Source: Flavobacteriales bacterium (lineage in GTDB: Bacteria; Bacteroidota; Bacteroidia; Flavobacteriales_D; Crocinitomicaceae). Taken from it: a stretch of DNA of 55,721 nucleotides. A model generated the notes under the pieces. That model saw only the letters and a program-made list of their open reading frames with translations, had not been told where the DNA came from and did no database searches. The stretch is from contig VFKM01000013.1 of NCBI GenBank assembly GCA_009885545.1, positions 1 through 55,721 on the forward strand, written 5' to 3'. This document shows positions 2,653-39,444 of this stretch, piece by piece; the first letter of the stretch is position 1; each line of letters opens with the position of its first letter. Position numbers and translations under genes: made by a program.

Positions 2653-3906
2653 TTATCCGTTAAATTTCTTCATTATAACACTTGTATTGTGCCCGCCAAA
2701 TCCAAAGGTATTCGAAATAGCAACATTCACAGTACGTTTTTGTGCTTCATTGAAAGTGAAATTCAATTTTGGATCAAATTCCGGATCATTAGTAAAATGA
2801 TTTATTGTTGGAGGAACGATATCATATTTACACGCCATAATACATGCAATTGCCTCAATAGCCCCAGCTGCACCGAGAAGGTGGCCTGTCATTGATTTTG
2901 TTGAACTTATATTCAACTTATAAGCATGATCGCCGAATACAGCTTGAATCGCTTTTACTTCAGCAATATCTCCTAGTGGAGTTGATGTACCATGAACATT
3001 CACATAATCAATAGCTGAAGGATCAATATTTGCATCTTCTAGAGCTGCAAGCATTGTATTTTTCGCTCCTAAACCATCTGGATGAGGAGCAGTCATATGA
3101 TAAGCATCACCCGACATTCCACCACCGATCATTTCAGCATAAATTTTTGCTCCACGTTTCATTGCGTGCTCATACTCTTCCAGAATTAAGGCCCCACTGC
3201 CTTCACCTAAAACAAAACCATCACGGTCTAAATCAAAAGGACGAGAAGCTGTTTCTGGTGATTCATTTCTTGTAGAAAGCGCTCTTAACGCATTGAATCC
3301 TCCCATTCCCATTTCATTAACTGCAGCTTCAGAACCTCCCGTAACAAAAGCATCAGCTTTTCCTAAACGGATGTAATTGAATGCATCAATAATGGCATTG
3401 GTTGCTGAAGCACAAGCCGAAACAGTAACGAAGTTAGGTCCGCGCAATCCATACTTAATTGAAATATGACCTGCAGCAATATCTGCAATCATTTTTGGAA
3501 TAAAGAAAGGATTGAAACGAGGAGTACCATCTCCAGAGAAAAAATTTTGTGACTCATCTTGGAATGTTTTAAGTCCTCCAATTCCTGAACCCCAAATAAC
3601 ACCTATTCGGTCTAAATTTGGGTTTGAATCTAATAGTGCAGAATCCGCCATAGCTTCCGTTGCGGAAACCATAGCGTACTGCGAAAATTGGTCTAATTTC
3701 CTTGCTTCTTTCTTATCGATAAATTCTTCGACATCGAAATTTTTAATTTCGCAAGCAAATTGTGTTTTAAACAAAGTTGCATCGAATTGTTTGATTGGTG
3801 CAGCACCACTTGTTCCTTTTAGCAACGCATCCCAGTATTCACCTAATGTGTTTCCAATAGGCGTAAGCGCACCCATACCTGTAACAACAACTCTTTTTAA
3901 TTCCAT
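2653..3906 (-). CDS. fabF: 3-oxoacyl-[acyl-carrier-protein] synthase II
   Basis: The condensing enzyme of type II fatty acid elongation; it joins malonyl-ACP to acyl-ACP. The 417-residue length fits FabF (usually 410-415). The Cys-His-His triad is visible: nucleophile Cys165 in VSACASATNAI, the first His in VHGTSTPLGD and the second in STKSMTGHLLGAAGA. The glycine-rich C-terminal motif SNTFGFGGHNTSV is intact. It sits 35 nt downstream of acpP, its carrier protein, and abuts rnc. Transcription probably begins upstream of acpP. Confidence 0.98.
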   Translation of the reverse strand: MELKRVVVTGMGALTPIGNTLGEYWDALLKGTSGAAPIKQFDATLFKTQFACEIKNFDVEEFIDKKEARKLDQFSQYAMVSATEAMADSALLDSNPNLDRIGVIWGSGIGGLKTFQDESQNFFSGDGTPRFNPFFIPKMIADIAAGHISIKYGLRGPNFVTVSACASATNAIIDAFNYIRLGKADAFVTGGSEAAVNEMGMGGFNALRALSTRNESPETASRPFDLDRDGFVLGEGSGALILEEYEHAMKRGAKIYAEMIGGGMSGDAYHMTAPHPDGLGAKNTMLAALEDANIDPSAIDYVNVHGTSTPLGDIAEVKAIQAVFGDHAYKLNISSTKSMTGHLLGAAGAIEAIACIMACKYDIVPPTINHFTNDPEFDPKLNFTFNEAQKRTVNVAISNTFGFGGHNTSVIMKKFNG

Positions 3907-3941: not shown

Positions 3942-4178
3942 TTAGTTAGCGTTCTCTTCAATATAAGAAACCGCGTCACCTACTGTTTGAATGTTTTCAG
4001 CTTGATCATCAGGAATTGCAATATTGAATTCTTTTTCGAATTCCATAATCAATTCTACTGTGTCTAGAGAGTCAGCTCCTAGATCATTTGTAAAAGACGC
4101 TTCGTTAGTTACTTCGGTCTCTTCAACTCCTAATTTATCTACGATAATAGAAATTACTTTTGCTTTGATATCAGACAT
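3942..4178 (-). CDS. acpP: Acyl carrier protein
   Basis: A small acidic four-helix carrier of 78 residues. The phosphopantetheine attachment site is Ser37 in [17 protein letters not shown], the universal ACP motif. It carries growing acyl chains between the fatty-acid synthase enzymes, including the FabF encoded next. It is the first gene of the acpP-fabF-rnc unit; upstream on the minus strand a TTTGCAC sequence resembles the tail of a Bacteroidota promoter but lacks a full TANNTTTG box. Confidence 0.98.
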
Positions 4179-4244
4179 TACTTATTAATTTAAGGGTTAA
4201 TCAGGGTGCAAAGAAAAAAACAATGCACTAGAAAACAAAATTAT

Positions 4245-4916
4245 TTACTCATATAATTCAATTACTTGCTTTTTTCCTTTTCTTTTTAGGTTGGGAATAC
4301 GTGCATTTTCGGCTGGATAACCTATTGGAATCAGTAAAAATGGTCGTTCATTAATTGGGCGATTTAAAGCTTTGGCGATAAAATTCATTGGGCTTGGAGT
4401 ATGTGTAAGCGCCACTAAACCAACGTTATGAACAGCTAACAGCAACATTCCGACAGCAATTCCAACTGATTCAGCAACATAATAATTGGTTTGTTTTTCT
4501 TCACTTTCTCCTATATCATAAACCTTTTTCATGACTACAACAATCCAAGGGGCGATGTCGATAAATTCTTTTTCCCAATTTGTACCTAAAGGAGCCAAAT
4601 CATTTTTCCATTCGTCCGACATTCTTCCATTATAGGAAATGAATTCCTCTTCTTCAGCCAGTTTTCTTAAGGCGGATTTCAAACCTTTGTTTGATATTAA
4701 ACAAAAGGTCCATGGTTGTTTGTGCGCGCCAGAAGGAGCTGTAGAGGCTGTCATGATCAAATTTTCCATAATTTCTACAGGCACTTGTTTTGAAGAGAAA
4801 TCTCGAACAGACCTTCTTTTATCCGCCCAATTATAAAATTCTTGAGATTTCTTCAACATCTCTTCTTCCAAAAATCTTTCTCCTTCAAAAGGAATAAAAT
4901 CCAAATCTGTTTCCAT
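4245..4916 (-). CDS. Nitroreductase-superfamily flavoprotein, iodotyrosine deiodinase (IYD)-like
   Basis: An FMN-dependent protein of 223 residues. The nitroreductase fold shows FMN-binding RRSVRDF (residues 34-40) and TAPSGAHKQPW (59-69). It matches animal IYD far better than generic nitroreductases. The active-site lid EEEEFISYNGRM...GTNWEK supplies Glu91, Tyr95 and Lys116, spaced exactly like the Glu/Tyr/Lys that bind the iodotyrosine zwitterion in mammalian IYD (E153, Y157, K178 as I recall them). The C-terminal IGYPAENARIPNLKRK also matches. Unlike animal IYD there is no N-terminal membrane anchor. IYD homologues are known from Bacteroidota such as Haliscomenobacter. The natural substrate here is unknown; reductive dehalogenation of halotyrosines is the inferred activity. 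Confidence 0.82.
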   Translation of the reverse strand: METDLDFIPFEGERFLEEEMLKKSQEFYNWADKRRSVRDFSSKQVPVEIMENLIMTASTAPSGAHKQPWTFCLISNKGLKSALRKLAEEEEFISYNGRMSDEWKNDLAPLGTNWEKEFIDIAPWIVVVMKKVYDIGESEEKQTNYYVAESVGIAVGMLLLAVHNVGLVALTHTPSPMNFIAKALNRPINERPFLLIPIGYPAENARIPNLKRKGKKQVIELYE

Positions 4917-4973: not shown

Positions 4974-5558
4974 ATGATTAAAAAGCGATTGGCACTCTTT
5001 ATTTCTGGAGCGGGCAGCAATGCCTTGAATATTATTGATTATTTCCAAAATCATTCACAAATTGAAGTTGGTTTTGTATTATCAAACAATGAAAATTCGC
5101 CAGCTATTGCAGCAAGTAAAGCAAAATCTATTGATGTTTTTGTTTGTTCAAATAATCAAGTTTTAGACAGTAAATATTTAATTGATTTGTGTCAAGATCA
5201 ATCAATTGATTATATAATTTTAGCTGGATATTTGAAACTAATTCCGGTTGATTTTATCCAACGTTACTCGGATCGAATTATCAATGTTCATCCTTCTCTT
5301 TTGCCTAAATATGGTGGAAAAGGAATGTATGGTGAAAATGTGCACAATGCAGTTTTAGCGGCTAATGAATCAGAATCGGGAATCAGCATTCATCTTGTAA
5401 ACGAAAAATTTGACGAAGGAAGATTGTTAGCGCAATTTCATTGTCATTTGTCGGATGAGGATTCTCTAGCTTCGTTAAAGAAAAAAATAGCTTATTTGGA
5501 ACATTCGTATTTTCCAGCTGTAATTGAAAAAACCATTTTATCTGAAAATTATGTATGA
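4974..5558 (+). CDS. purN: Phosphoribosylglycinamide formyltransferase (GART)
   Basis: The third step of purine synthesis: it transfers a formyl group from 10-formyl-THF to GAR. The 194-residue length matches PurN (about 190-210). Visible motifs are ISGAGSNALNII (phosphate-binding loop), NVHPSLLPKYGGKGMYG with catalytic His106, and the formyl-folate Asp in NEKFDEGRLLAQ. The gene overlaps the next reading frame by 8 nt. The later pathway enzyme purH lies far away at 47.8 kb, so the purine genes are dispersed here. Confidence 0.96.
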   Translation: MIKKRLALFISGAGSNALNIIDYFQNHSQIEVGFVLSNNENSPAIAASKAKSIDVFVCSNNQVLDSKYLIDLCQDQSIDYIILAGYLKLIPVDFIQRYSDRIINVHPSLLPKYGGKGMYGENVHNAVLAANESESGISIHLVNEKFDEGRLLAQFHCHLSDEDSLASLKKKIAYLEHSYFPAVIEKTILSENYV

Positions 5559-6151: not shown

Positions 6152-7849
6152 TTAATTCGGCGAAAACGTTCCTTCACCTTCCCTTACTTCCATACCAAAT
6201 GCGAATTTTTTCTCAGAGATGATTTTACCTTTTTCGTCGTACACGATAAAGCGTCCATGCTTTTGACCGTCTTTAAAGTCCATTTCTTCCAAAAGAGCGC
6301 CTTTTCTATCGTACATCTTCATTGTACCGTTCAATTCTCCATCCTTGTATTGAGATACAACCGCTGGTGTTCTTCCTCCTGGATAATAAGCAATCCATTC
6401 TCCGTCCTTTTGTCCCTCTTTGTAATTTCCTTCTTCGGTTTTTTTGAAATCTTTGCTGGAAAAAGAAGAAGACAATCCATCTTTTTTACTGTCTAAACGT
6501 ACACGATCTTTCAAAATTTCATCTTCGAATTTTGACTTCTCCTTAAAAATTTTATAATTCACAACTTCCTTTGGTTTCCCATTATCAAAATAATCTATCC
6601 ATTCATCAACTTTTAAATTGTCTTCATATTTTCCTGATAACTTCAGTTTCCCCGTGTCATAAAATGAAGTCCATTCGTCGTTTAACAGACCATTTTTAAA
6701 ATTCGCTTTATTCTTTAACGTGCCATTTTCCCAATAATTCAACCATTCACCTTCTTCTTTTCCTTCCTTGTAATCACCTTTCATCAATAATGTTCCGTCT
6801 TCATACCACGTTTGCCAAGTTCCATCTTTAAGGTCATTTTTAAAACTCCCGTCTTTGAATTTTTTGCCATTTTGATATAAATATGTCCACTGTCCAGATT
6901 TTAAGCCTTCCTTGTAATGTGCGTTGTATGATAATTCGCCTGTTGGGTACCAATATGTCCAATCACCATGTTGGAGATCATTTTGAAACGACCCTTCCAT
7001 ATCACGATTACCAGTATTTGTATACCATTTCCATACACCTTCTTTTTTACCATCTTTATAATAACCAAAAACATTCAATTTTTTGTTATCGTAGAAATAG
7101 CTGTATTCTCCATTTAAAACGCCATTCTTGTAATTACTGATCTTTTCAGTTTCTCCTGTGTAATATGCGTATGTCCAGGTACTGTCTTTTTCTCCATTCT
7201 TGAAAAATCCGATCAGCGTATTATAACCATAAATACTAATTTCTTCAAAAGGACCATCCTTCAATCCATCTTTATAATTGTACCATTCTTTAACTGTTCC
7301 AGTAGTGTAATAGGTAGATAATTCTCCAGTGCCTTCAATTATTGTTTGTGTGTGGTCTGGATCAGATAACCAAAATGCCATTACATAGTTTACACCACCT
7401 TTAACTTCTTCAATTGACTTTTCTCTTCCGTCAAAATAATAATATGTCCATTTGTTTATAGGTTGATCTAATTTATATTGCCCTACAATTGAAAGCTTCC
7501 CGTTTTCAAACCATTCTTTGTAAGTGCTATCTTGTTGGTTTAAATAGAAATATCCTTCTTGTTTTAATTTTTTATTGGAATAATAGAACACTGTTTTTCC
7601 GTGTAACATGTCCTTATAATAATTACGTTCTTCCTCTAATACTCCCAAACGATCATAATAAAGCCATTTACCATGTTTTTCTGTAGTTTCTCCAGTTTCA
7701 TCTTTAAAATAAGCACCAGATGCCTGAAGTTGCGTTTTATTAAAATCCCAAAAAAGACTTGTTTTTTTTGTGAGATTCTCTTTTAAAATCACCTGACAAA
7801 AACTGATTGAAAAAGACATCAAAAAGAGGATGGAGAGAATTATTTTCAT
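6152..7849 (-). CDS. Secreted MORN-repeat (YwqK-type) protein
   Basis: A 565-residue protein with an N-terminal signal peptide (MKIILSILFLMSFSISFCQ) followed by almost nothing but ~22-residue MORN/YwqK-type repeats: W.YY..G.L...G.YK.G...G.W, well over a dozen copies. The repeats form beta-hairpin ladders. Databases often call such proteins 'YwqK family antitoxin', but there is no partner toxin next to it and the signal peptide puts it in the periplasm or outer membrane. Similar proteins are very common in Bacteroidota with no proven role. It is convergent with marC (10-nt gap). No sorting domain is seen. Confidence 0.88.
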   Translation of the reverse strand: MKIILSILFLMSFSISFCQVILKENLTKKTSLFWDFNKTQLQASGAYFKDETGETTEKHGKWLYYDRLGVLEEERNYYKDMLHGKTVFYYSNKKLKQEGYFYLNQQDSTYKEWFENGKLSIVGQYKLDQPINKWTYYYFDGREKSIEEVKGGVNYVMAFWLSDPDHTQTIIEGTGELSTYYTTGTVKEWYNYKDGLKDGPFEEISIYGYNTLIGFFKNGEKDSTWTYAYYTGETEKISNYKNGVLNGEYSYFYDNKKLNVFGYYKDGKKEGVWKWYTNTGNRDMEGSFQNDLQHGDWTYWYPTGELSYNAHYKEGLKSGQWTYLYQNGKKFKDGSFKNDLKDGTWQTWYEDGTLLMKGDYKEGKEEGEWLNYWENGTLKNKANFKNGLLNDEWTSFYDTGKLKLSGKYEDNLKVDEWIDYFDNGKPKEVVNYKIFKEKSKFEDEILKDRVRLDSKKDGLSSSFSSKDFKKTEEGNYKEGQKDGEWIAYYPGGRTPAVVSQYKDGELNGTMKMYDRKGALLEEMDFKDGQKHGRFIVYDEKGKIISEKKFAFGMEVREGEGTFSPN

Positions 7850-9242: not shown

Positions 9243-11534
9243 ATGAAAATTATTCTCTTTCTTTTTGTATTAATTTCATTACTCCATTCTTTTGCTCAAA
9301 CAGATCAGCAAAACCTAGAAAAATACTGGAAATTCAGAAATACTTTTCGTGAGCAATTTATAAAAATTGGTCCAAACGATGGAGAAAGTCTGCCTGCTGG
9401 TTCTATCAAACCATGCGCCTGTGTGGATGATTTATATCCTTCAGAAGACAAGACAGAATGGGGTGTGACTTGCTATGGCGAAATGCATTGGGGTGATGGG
9501 ATGATTCGACACGGTCATTATTTAGGTTTATTAGCAACAGAATATCGCTTGTTAAAAAATAGTGGTGGAGATGTTACAGGTGTCTTGAATGAATTGTTCT
9601 ATGCACTTAACGTAATTAACAGATTAGACCTTAAGGCAGAATCAGAACAAGCTAAATTTTATAACCTTACTTTAAATGGAGAGTTAAATGGCTTTTTTAT
9701 TAGAGAAGATGTAGGTCAGGATTTTGGTTTAAATTGGAAGGATGAACCAACTTCAATTAGAGGTACGAATTCTGTCTTATACTATAACCAAAGAGCTTCG
9801 GGTGGTATTCCAAATGGTAGTACAGTTTTTGGAAATAGTTATCAAAATGTGCCGAGCAATGATCAGGTTTCAAGTTTAATGGTTGGTTTAAGTTTGATTC
9901 ATAAACTGGTAGATAGTGTTTTTGTTCAACCGCCAAATTCTAAAATTGGATTTAATATTGTACTAGAAACGGCTGCAATAGTTGATAGATTAGTTCGCTT
10001 TGCTGCTGATCATAATTGGCAACTGATAGATGTAAATGGATGGCCTGTTGGAAATGGTGGTGGTGATATGCTACTTATGGCTTATCCATTAATAAAAGCA
10101 AGTCAACGAATTACTGGACTTAAGCCAACAAGTTATGACTTATCATTTACGCGAAAAATCATCCCATACAATTGGCTTCAGCATTGTATTACAGGTTATG
10201 GGAGTAATGATAAAATTTCTCAAAGCGATGCTTGCCGTGAAATGGGAATTTTACAAAAAAGCCAAAGACGTAAATTTAATTCCAAAAAAAATAAAGACAT
10301 TATAAACAATATGAACTCTTCCCTATTTCAAAAATGGGAAATGAGTGGAAAATTTAATAGCAATATCAAAATCACAAGTTTCATTTGGACGAATATAATT
10401 CCTAATAATTATTTAAATGGCTATGAAGATTTTGAGAAAACCCGCAAATTACCCTTTCTTCCTTGGCCTTTAAAAGCAATCACTTGGGATAAAGTGAATA
10501 TTTCAGATTACAATAATACTATACTCTTTAACTATGGAATAATCACCGGAGAATGGACTAAATACCAGGCTGATAAATTTGCTGATATTTCAGGAAACCG
10601 TTGCTTGGAGTTGATTAATGCAGTAATTCGGCACGAATCTCCCCTTAACAACAAATCATTTTATAACAATTATTTAAATGGGTTAACCCCTTTTGGGCCC
10701 TTTAATATTGCTGGGTTTACATCAGATCCACTAAAGCTTAATAAATTTCATGAAAATGGTTGGGCAACAGAATATCGCTGGACCAATCCAGGCGAATCTA
10801 TCGTTGCTGGTGGCAATGAAGGAATGTTTAGTGCATTAGATTATATGCTCTATCACAACCTTTATTATCTACTTTTTGAGAAAGAATTACCGCCGTTTAA
10901 AGAAAAATATAATTGTTTTTGCTCAGATGAGCTCGCTATTGATCTATCAAAAACAACGTCTTTAAAATATTTGGCAAATTATGATCAACAAGTTATTAAG
11001 CAAATAATTGAAAATTTAAATAAAAAATTAGCCTACCTGCCTAACTGCGTTTCTGATGTTTTTGAAACTGTTAACAATAACGTACAGACTGTTTTTGAAA
11101 TAAAGCCAAAATTTTCAAATTACAACAGTTTAGAAATTCTTACAAATGAATTTCAAACGGAAAACACGATTATTAAGAATAATGGAAATGTCAATTTAAG
11201 AACGCGATTAATACTTTGTAACAACAGTGTACTAACTCTTGATTCTGCTGGAAGAATGGATATTTATGGGGGTGAACTACTATTAAACGATCGGTCAATA
11301 CTAGCTATTTTTGGTGAAGTACATTTACATTCAGGGTCAAAATTAAAATTGGTTGGAACTGGATCAAAAATCATATTACATCCTGGCGGGAAACTAATAT
11401 TTGATGAAAATACATTGATAGAAAACGAATTAGGGAGTGAAATTGAACTTTATGATGGAGGTGAAATTATCACTCCTGGAGTTGAATGGGAAGCTATCAT
11501 AAGTGGAATGATAAAGAAAATGAATGTAAAATGA
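9243..11534 (+). CDS. Large secreted protein of unknown function, beta-solenoid-like tail
   Basis: I do not recognise a family. The 763-residue protein begins with a signal peptide (MKIILFLFVLISLLHSFAQ). Residues ~50-85 carry a Cys pair and a striking His/Trp-rich stretch, CYGEMHWGDGMIRHGHYLG, that could be functional. The middle is helix-rich with repeated aromatic and Gly motifs (NGWPVGNGGGDMLL, NGWATEYRWTNPGES), reminiscent of alpha/alpha-toroid enzymes, but this is a weak guess. Residues ~655-755 show short strands ending in Gly/Asn (DIYGGELLLNDRSILAIFGEVHLHSGSKLKL), typical of a parallel beta-helix. No T9SS sorting domain, lipobox or anchor is seen. It sits 46 nt upstream of the LD-carboxypeptidase on the same strand. 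Confidence 0.75.
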   Translation: MKIILFLFVLISLLHSFAQTDQQNLEKYWKFRNTFREQFIKIGPNDGESLPAGSIKPCACVDDLYPSEDKTEWGVTCYGEMHWGDGMIRHGHYLGLLATEYRLLKNSGGDVTGVLNELFYALNVINRLDLKAESEQAKFYNLTLNGELNGFFIREDVGQDFGLNWKDEPTSIRGTNSVLYYNQRASGGIPNGSTVFGNSYQNVPSNDQVSSLMVGLSLIHKLVDSVFVQPPNSKIGFNIVLETAAIVDRLVRFAADHNWQLIDVNGWPVGNGGGDMLLMAYPLIKASQRITGLKPTSYDLSFTRKIIPYNWLQHCITGYGSNDKISQSDACREMGILQKSQRRKFNSKKNKDIINNMNSSLFQKWEMSGKFNSNIKITSFIWTNIIPNNYLNGYEDFEKTRKLPFLPWPLKAITWDKVNISDYNNTILFNYGIITGEWTKYQADKFADISGNRCLELINAVIRHESPLNNKSFYNNYLNGLTPFGPFNIAGFTSDPLKLNKFHENGWATEYRWTNPGESIVAGGNEGMFSALDYMLYHNLYYLLFEKELPPFKEKYNCFCSDELAIDLSKTTSLKYLANYDQQVIKQIIENLNKKLAYLPNCVSDVFETVNNNVQTVFEIKPKFSNYNSLEILTNEFQTENTIIKNNGNVNLRTRLILCNNSVLTLDSAGRMDIYGGELLLNDRSILAIFGEVHLHSGSKLKLVGTGSKIILHPGGKLIFDENTLIENELGSEIELYDGGEIITPGVEWEAIISGMIKKMNVK

Positions 11535-34017: not shown

Positions 34018-34737
34018 TTAATCTTCACTTTTTCTACTCAAAGCATAGATTACTAGACCAAAACCAATTTTATTTATTGCATCTGCGATATTGTAAACAA
34101 TATCCATTGCATGCATAGCTTGTTTTGTATCTGCTACAGGTTGCCATCCGAATAATCCTCCTGGAGTCCCCAAAATGTAACCTAATGGATAAATTGCCCA
34201 ACCAACTAAAACAAACCAACCTAATATTTTTGTTGCTTTCGCTACTTGAGCACCGGCTGTTTGAGCCAACTTCGCAACTTCTCCAAACCAAATAATGTAA
34301 ACAATATAGAAATAAGCCGCGCCTGAAATTACTCCCCACAATACACTTCCATCTCGATCTAATACTTCACCAGCATAACCAGTTAACAGCATTACAAGAG
34401 ACGCAGTAATTAATTTCCATAATAAACCGATTTTTGCGCCTGCTTTTTTTGTGATTAAGTAGAATTCAACGCACATTAACGGCACCGTTAAAATCCAATC
34501 TACATAGCGGAAAAATGTAGGAGACTCACCAGTTTCTAAATTGTAATCTCTCATGTAGTAGTAATGAACTGCTGCAATAAAAGTAATTAATCCAGATACT
34601 AAAACAGAAGTTCTCCATTTTTGAGAGGTGTTATTTAACTCAAAAAAGAAGAAAACAGAAGCAGCCATCATGGCCATTGTTCCAATAAAGAACGTAAACG
34701 CGACATAGTTATCGCTTGCAATTTTTAAATGTTCCAT
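34018..34737 (-). CDS. Proteorhodopsin (light-driven proton pump)
   Basis: 239 residues, seven transmembrane helices. Helix C RYVDWILTVPLMCVEFYLI has the DTE motif: proton acceptor Asp80, Thr84 and proton donor Glu91, the proteorhodopsin/proton-pump type rather than the NDQ sodium pump. Helix G has the retinal Schiff-base lysine, Lys223 in DAINKIGFG. His58 in AAVHYYYMRDY is the conserved His that pairs with the acceptor. Met88 sits where green (Leu) and blue (Gln) proteorhodopsins differ; Met is common in flavobacteria and gives green absorption (inference). No blh or carotenoid genes lie in this window. It has its own terminator. Confidence 0.96.
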   Translation of the reverse strand: MEHLKIASDNYVAFTFFIGTMAMMAASVFFFFELNNTSQKWRTSVLVSGLITFIAAVHYYYMRDYNLETGESPTFFRYVDWILTVPLMCVEFYLITKKAGAKIGLLWKLITASLVMLLTGYAGEVLDRDGSVLWGVISGAAYFYIVYIIWFGEVAKLAQTAGAQVAKATKILGWFVLVGWAIYPLGYILGTPGGLFGWQPVADTKQAMHAMDIVYNIADAINKIGFGLVIYALSRKSED

Positions 34738-37283: not shown

Positions 37284-37940
37284 TTACAACTTCATTTCTG
37301 GAACAAAATCTGGAACAACCAAATCACCTTCTGTTTTTGAAATAATTTCTTCGACCGTTACACCTGGTGCACGCTCTAGTAAATAGAACTTATTGTCTTT
37401 AATTTCCATAACCGCAAGTTCAGTTACAACTTTCTTAACGCATCCAACTCCTGTTAATGGTAAACTACATGTTTTAAGAATTTTCGATTCCCCTTCTCGG
37501 TTTGAATGCATCATTGCAACGATAATATTTTCAGCTGAAGCGACAAGATCCATCGCGCCACCCATTCCTTTAACCATTTTACCTGGAATTTTCCAATTGG
37601 CAATATCTCCATTTTGAGAAACTTCCATTGCACCAAGTACAGTCAATTGAACATGTTGACCACGAATCATTGCAAAAGAAGTTGCCGAATCAAAGAATGC
37701 AGCACCTTTTAAAGTAGTTATTGTCTGTTTTCCTGCATTGATAAGGTCAGCGTCTTCTTCTCCTTCAAAAGGAAATGGACCCATCCCTAAAACGCCATTT
37801 TCTGATTGAAATTCAACTTCAATTCCTTCTGGTATATAATTCGCAACCAACGTAGGAATTCCAATTCCCAAATTAACGTACCAACCATCTCTCAATTCTT
37901 GAGCAATTCGTTTTGCGATTCCAATTTTATCTAAAGCCAT
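37284..37940 (-). CDS. scoB: 3-oxoacid CoA-transferase subunit B
   Basis: 218 residues. The family I CoA-transferase signature SENGVLGMGPFPFEGEEDADLINAG contains the catalytic Glu that forms the CoA thioester. It moves CoA between succinyl-CoA (or acetyl-CoA) and acetoacetate for ketone or amino-acid catabolism. Its partner subunit A is at 38746-39444, but a lipoprotein gene lies between them, which is unusual because the two are normally adjacent. Confidence 0.95.
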   Translation of the reverse strand: MALDKIGIAKRIAQELRDGWYVNLGIGIPTLVANYIPEGIEVEFQSENGVLGMGPFPFEGEEDADLINAGKQTITTLKGAAFFDSATSFAMIRGQHVQLTVLGAMEVSQNGDIANWKIPGKMVKGMGGAMDLVASAENIIVAMMHSNREGESKILKTCSLPLTGVGCVKKVVTELAVMEIKDNKFYLLERAPGVTVEEIISKTEGDLVVPDFVPEMKL

Positions 37941-38015: not shown

Positions 38016-38687
38016 TTAAGGTTCAATATGATAATTAACAAGATTCCAAACTTGGTTGCTGTCTATAAGTTCTTTTCGTACTAAACCTATTCCTTTTGAA
38101 AAATAATGATTCGTAGGTTGTTTTCCCTCGATAAAAGTATTTAATTCATGAATTTTTATTGTTTTTTGAAATTCATAATTACCCAATTGAAAAGTGGTAT
38201 AAATTGCATCAATTGATAATTTATCATTTTGATAAGCTACATTTGATATATATATATAATCATTTTCATAATAGGTGAAAAATAAACAATAATCACTTCC
38301 TACATAATCCCCAGGTTTTTGTTTAGCTCGGTTTACATACAAACATTTTTTACTTACTGGTACTGTTTCACTACATACATTTGTGTTAATGTAAAGAGGC
38401 CAATAATGGTAATAATAACCCTGATAAGTACTATAAATATAGGTATCGAAGTTATAACCCGAACTTATCGTTGATTGTGTCACATATACAGAGTCTCTTT
38501 CAAGGCTCGTCTCTTCTTCATACACCCACCATGTTCCAACCTTAAAAGCAAAATAATCTTTGGCTTCGGTTACTTTTTGGCAAGTAGTACATGGAGTTGA
38601 ACTTACAACTGGGTCTTTTTTACAAGAGACAATCAAAATAATAAAACCACTAATACAAAGAAGGATTAAAGAAATGAGCTTTTTCAT
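38016..38687 (-). CDS. Lipoprotein of unknown function lodged between CoA-transferase subunits
   Basis: 223 residues with a lipobox signal MKKLISLILLCISGFIILIVSC (Cys22). The mature part is rich in Tyr, Trp and Thr (YFAFKVGTWWVYEEETSLERDSVYVTQ), a pattern of beta-sandwich lipoproteins in Bacteroidota, with Cys pairs at CTTCQK. I recognise no family. Same strand as both CoA-transferase genes, gaps of 58 and 75 nt. Function in CoA transfer is unlikely, because it is exported and the enzyme is cytoplasmic. Possible recent insertion. Confidence 0.78.
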   Translation of the reverse strand: MKKLISLILLCISGFIILIVSCKKDPVVSSTPCTTCQKVTEAKDYFAFKVGTWWVYEEETSLERDSVYVTQSTISSGYNFDTYIYSTYQGYYYHYWPLYINTNVCSETVPVSKKCLYVNRAKQKPGDYVGSDYCLFFTYYENDYIYISNVAYQNDKLSIDAIYTTFQLGNYEFQKTIKIHELNTFIEGKQPTNHYFSKGIGLVRKELIDSNQVWNLVNYHIEP

Positions 38688-38745: not shown

Positions 38746-39444
38746 TTACTTTTTTGGGCGAACAGTTCGTTGTTCTATGCGTTTTTCAAACTTTTCTCCT
38801 TTAAAGATTCGTTGAACAAAAATTCCTGGAGTATGAATGAAATTTGGGTCTAATTCTCCTGCCGGTACTAATTCCTCAACCTCAGCAATGGTGATTTTTC
38901 CAGCCATTGCCATCATTGGATTAAAATTGCAAGCTGTTGCTTTAAAAACCAAATTGCCTTCCGTGTCCCCTTTCCACGCTTTAACGATAGCAAAATCCGC
39001 TGTTAATGCACTTTCTAAAATATGTGGTTTGCCATTAAAGACACGCACTTCTTTTCCTTCCGCAACTTCAGTTCCGAAACCTGATGGCGTAAAAAATGCT
39101 GGTATTCCAGCCCCACCTGCTCTACATCTTTCGGCTAAACTACCTTGTGGAATTAGGTCTACTTCTAATTCTCCTGAAAGCATTTGACGTTCGAATTCAG
39201 CATTTTCTCCTACATAAGAACTAATCATTTTTTTGATTTGCTTCTCTTGCAACAATAACCCTAATCCAAAATCATCAACACCTGCATTGTTCGAAATACA
39301 TGTCAAATCTTTCACTTTCATTTTCACTAATTGTGCGATTGAATTTTCTGGAATTCCGCACAATCCAAAACCTCCAAGCATTAAAGTCATTCCACTTTCA
39401 ACACCTGTTAAGGCTTCTTCAACATTTTTTACAACTTTGTTCAT
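38746..39444 (-). CDS. scoA: 3-oxoacid CoA-transferase subunit A
   Basis: 232 residues. The CoA-transferase alpha motif [20 protein letters not shown] (GGFGxCGxPE) is intact, followed by the CoA-binding region [26 protein letters not shown]. It works with ScoB. It follows PBP1A by 5 nt and is probably co-transcribed with that unrelated gene. Confidence 0.95.

Follow-up and report, generated by a model that had tools for sequence, protein, structure and literature searches.

A soluble homologue of iodotyrosine deiodinase encoded between purN and acpP in a Bacteroidota genome

Iodotyrosine deiodinase (IYD) is a flavoenzyme that reductively dehalogenates halotyrosines with FMN; in the animal thyroid it removes iodine from iodotyrosine. 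To our knowledge, the role of IYD in bacteria has not been settled. An open reading frame at 4245–4916 of the stretch of DNA analysed here (the window, 55,721 nucleotides; contig C98 of draft genome G000, which is 3.16 Mb and 89% complete) had been predicted from its letters to encode such an enzyme. The bacterium is an aquatic member of the Bacteroidota, and the named genomes nearest to it are MAGs of Crocinitomicaceae, Fluviicola and Flavobacteriales. Is the product an IYD, or is it one of the many other flavoproteins of the nitroreductase superfamily? Why would a bacterium dehalogenate tyrosines? And does the position of the gene next to acpP say anything about its function? Enzymes of this family have been found from mammals to bacteria (review, PMC13078365), and bromotyrosine is debrominated in vitro by human DEHAL1 (PMC4708624).

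Assignment to the IYD family

The predicted coordinates stand, with the strand corrected to minus; the plus strand at 4245–4916 is full of stops. The reading frame encodes a soluble, FMN-type IYD homologue (putative halotyrosine dehalogenase) of 223 aa. Its ATG at 4916 is preceded by an in-frame TAG two codons upstream, so the start is secure and the protein has neither an extended N-terminus nor a membrane anchor. Animal IYD has an N-terminal membrane anchor followed by a linker, whereas the window protein begins at the catalytic domain and its alignment to PDB sequences starts at residue 2, in agreement with the original prediction. Purifying selection acts on the gene (dN/dS 0.06–0.10 against three near relatives).

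In a phmmer search of the PDB sequences the top match was the IYD of Haliscomenobacter hydrossis (302.6 bits, E 1.4e-89; PDB 5ko7, 5ko8, 5krd), with 59% identity over nearly the full length. H. hydrossis is also a member of the Bacteroidota, in another class, Saprospiria, and its enzyme has the same anchor-free form, Glu/Tyr/Lys clamp, TAPSGAH and THTPSPMN motifs and fold. The mammalian IYD/DEHAL1 enzymes (3gb5, 3tnz, 4ttb, 4ttc) scored 204–209 bits, with the mouse protein at E about 2e-59 and 44% identity, the same clamp residues and a fold TM of about 0.94. The IYD of Thermotoga neapolitana (6pz0), a shorter outlier of the same family, is a weaker match at 85 bits, 31% identity and a TM of 0.76 by query length. 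The best nitroreductase outside the IYDs reached only 47 bits (E 2.7e-11), and the distance between this value and those of the H. hydrossis and mouse enzymes excludes chance.

Could the protein nevertheless be a general FMN nitroreductase or flavin reductase with no specificity for halotyrosine? Generic annotation leads there, as had been anticipated. Pfam matched the general nitroreductase family PF00881 (68.9 bits, cut-off 23.5), an assignment at superfamily level, and members of this superfamily are promiscuous. No NCBIfam model exceeded its cut-off for the protein; the BluB model TIGR02476 gave 54.4 bits, under its cut-off of 150. Even in the PDB the H. hydrossis IYD chain is labelled 'Nitroreductase'.

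The tree and the predicted fold argue against this. A phylogeny had been proposed as a check, with placement outside the IYDs counting against the assignment. In an IQ-TREE maximum-likelihood tree of 131 rows, which included 6 BluB and 21 other nitroreductases of the order and left out the T. neapolitana IYD, the window protein groups with the H. hydrossis and mouse IYDs with clade support of 100/97, although the bootstrap had not fully settled, long branches meet and the order inside the clade is mostly unresolved. BluB and the other nitroreductases fall outside, in separate clades. Six rows that had been fetched as general nitroreductases (L133, L135, L136, L139, L140 and L143) are themselves IYDs of other families in the order. 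AlphaFold2 was given 42 window and genome-derived sequences, and the model of the IYD has a mean pLDDT of 93.7. In Foldseek the 25 PDB entries that best match this predicted model are IYDs without exception. First among them, with TM 0.95, rmsd 1.0 and 59% identity, is 5ko8, the H. hydrossis enzyme in complex with FMN and mono-iodotyrosine. Judged by these best matches, the predicted fold resembles IYD with the closed lid of the substrate-bound state. A separate, ordinary nitroreductase is present elsewhere in the genome, on contig C105.

Sequence, residue pattern, tree and predicted fold thus all bear out the prediction of an IYD homologue: the gene product is an IYD-family protein and an orthologue of the crystallised H. 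hydrossis enzyme.

Active site and proposed reaction

The codons for residues 91–95 (4632–4646, minus strand) contain Glu91 and Tyr95 and mark the start of the predicted active-site lid. We take these two residues, from the solved IYD structures, to clamp the substrate zwitterion; the third zwitterion-binding residue would be Lys116 (codon at 4569–4571, minus strand). The predicted numbering and spacing (4 and 21) proved accurate, and the three residues match the H. hydrossis and mouse IYDs column for column. In the larger alignment each is present in 104/104 sequences of the IYD clade, and all three are among the 21 columns that are invariant across a diverse set of 35, with identities as low as 38%. 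The TAPSGAH motif is likewise where it was said to be, T59-A-P-S-G-A-H65 (4722–4742, minus strand), which by alignment is the site for FMN and the substrate phenolate. Thr171-His-Thr173 (4398–4406, minus strand) lies at the position of human Thr239, which, going by published human IYD mutants, tunes flavin N5. Within the IYD clade T173 is conserved in 104/104 and T171 in 103/104 sequences, and the THTP stretch aligns with TTTP in the mouse enzyme; the PDB matches list 5yak as a human Thr239 mutant.

BluB (5,6-dimethylbenzimidazole synthase) and the general FMN nitroreductases have the superfamily fold and the FMN-binding arginines in common with IYD, but those examined are without the Glu/Tyr/Lys clamp. 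At the columns of residues 91, 95 and 116 BluB has A, F and a gap. Among the letters printed for the 21 other nitroreductases, which lack one or two rows per column, there is no E at 91, Y at 95 or K at 116. With every IYD-specific binding residue invariant in a gene under purifying selection, a general nitroreductase is a highly improbable identity for this protein.

The reaction may then be pictured as follows. A halotyrosine (iodo-, bromo- or chlorotyrosine) would bind above the flavin, where Glu91, Tyr95 and Lys116 would hold its amino-acid part while the lid closes. Reduced FMN would strip off the halogen reductively, in one-electron steps that the Thr at flavin N5 would favour, and the products would be tyrosine and halide. 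A soluble, FMN-dependent IYD acting on halotyrosine is the best explanation of the gene, with a probability of roughly 0.87; the activity itself, like the halide range, the reductant and the physiological role, is what we infer for the window enzyme.

Might the fold and the clamp serve a different native substrate? Another tyrosine derivative in place of free halotyrosine, such as nitrotyrosine or a halogenated metabolite made from tyrosine, would fit a neighbourhood that has no visible link to halogen chemistry and a gene that is widespread across the phylum. However, all the known residues that fix iodotyrosine are kept, and the fold nearest to the model is the iodotyrosine-bound state. We regard another tyrosine derivative as improbable.

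If free halotyrosine is the substrate, the physiological role could be to salvage or detoxify halotyrosines that stem from decaying protein or from halogenated matter. The tyrosine released would re-enter protein synthesis or pass into the cell's tyrosine catabolism, through HPPD and then a homogentisate-dioxygenase-like (HGD-like) enzyme. The genes for these two lie side by side on contig C133 of the same genome, so tyrosine freed of its halogen can be catabolised. They are found in nearly all genomes of the family, with or without IYD, which makes the catabolic link permissive and not diagnostic, and their co-occurrence with IYD uninformative.

The purN/acpP slot

On the minus strand the IYD gene is followed by acpP, the acyl carrier protein gene (3942–4178, PF00550), fabF, for beta-ketoacyl-ACP synthase (2653–3906, named by reading), and rnc, for ribonuclease III (1933–2652, PF14622/PF00636). 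On its other side is the divergent purN, for glycinamide ribonucleotide formyltransferase (4974–5558, plus strand, PF00551). PurN, acpP and fabF are syntenic in relatives. Among the 34 relatives fetched, 32 have the gene upstream of acpP-fabF and in the same orientation, usually with a gap of less than about 130 bp (1.4 kb in one), and the opposite flank is mostly a divergent purN. Nearly all genomes with IYD in this slot, which represent at least seven families of the order, have it beside acpP-fabF.

Such a fixed place before acpP could point to a role of IYD in fatty-acid synthesis or in the acpP operon. Genomes that have no IYD argue otherwise, as they retain acpP-fabF-rnc, mostly with purN adjoining. 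In 9 of the 13 IYD-less genomes of the same genus or family that were examined, purN is 137–284 bp from acpP; the other four have no purN within the stretch fetched. No IYD remnants were found between purN and acpP in the empty slots. In the window, the 66-bp gap after the IYD stop (4179–4244, minus strand) contains conserved acpP promoter-like elements, TAATTTTG ... TTCTTTGC, and identical elements precede acpP where IYD is absent. Very likely, then, acpP is transcribed from a promoter of its own, and its operon need not include IYD. In the 28 loci examined beyond the order, IYD lies elsewhere, in no case beside acpP. A function in the acpP operon is therefore one to which we give very little credence.

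Outside the slot the neighbours of IYD have little in common. No Pfam family is shared near these genes, any one being present in at most 3 of the 96 flanking ORFs scanned, and no conserved partner reductase or halogenase was found among them. In four genomes of the same taxonomic family (L090, L091, L096 and L097) the gene also lies outside the acpP slot. The tree joins these four IYDs to ones from other orders of the class, a placement that suggests separate acquisition. In a search of plasmids, acpP alone matched.

As part of the best explanation, IYD is an accessory gene that is mostly inherited vertically in the purN/acpP slot of the order and absent from many members. A stronger version is unlikely: that IYD was ancestral in the order, was kept vertically, with its place next to acpP fixed, and was lost many times. 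Its task would then be a general housekeeping one, the removal of halotyrosines before tRNA is charged with them or catabolism is blocked, and its expression might be coupled to acpP-fabF-rnc by read-through.

Two further observations concern this region. Locus L003 (CAMDNE010000006.1), from a MAG titled 'Chitinophaga pinensis', is a near copy of the Crocinitomicaceae-type window locus (fabF 97% and IYD 91% identical), and the name looks wrong. A secreted-looking protein of 565 aa (6152–7849, minus strand), with repeated 'W.YY..G'-like segments that are MORN-like by eye, is syntenic with the IYD locus in many relatives.

Distribution among Bacteroidota and other genes of the window

IYD is an ordinary but patchy trait in the Bacteroidota. 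Of 150 genomes of the family, 50 have it (42 of 113 if only the good ones are counted). The sample of the order contained at least 8 genomes with IYD out of 12, and that of the phylum 116 out of 396, or about 30%. At this frequency the find is not strange. Bacterial IYDs had also been crystallised already, and the surprise that the original prediction expressed at a bacterial IYD was overstated; the window gene adds one further member to a known family. A 610-residue open frame in genome G244 was considered as an IYD fusion and dropped, as its N-terminal half reads as low-complexity sequence and the IYD part comes with a separate Met.

Two consequences follow from these data. Many Bacteroidota genes that would be annotated as 'nitroreductase' are probable halotyrosine dehalogenases, which no NCBIfam model names. 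In addition, some genomes of a single genus have IYD in this slot and others lack it there, with the flanks unchanged, which provides natural pairs of genomes in which its role could be tested.

Other genes of the window include one for a 763-aa secreted-looking protein (9243–11534, plus strand) with zero Pfam matches. Two genes read as 3-oxoacid CoA-transferase-like (37284–37940 and 38746–39444, minus strand) have a 223-aa lipoprotein-like ORF between them (38016–38687). A proteorhodopsin-type gene is present at 34018–34737 (minus strand; PF01036, 4e-43). In the helix C of its product, RYVDWILTVPLMCVEFYL, the D, T and E typical of a proton pump are in place and the tuning site is occupied by Met.
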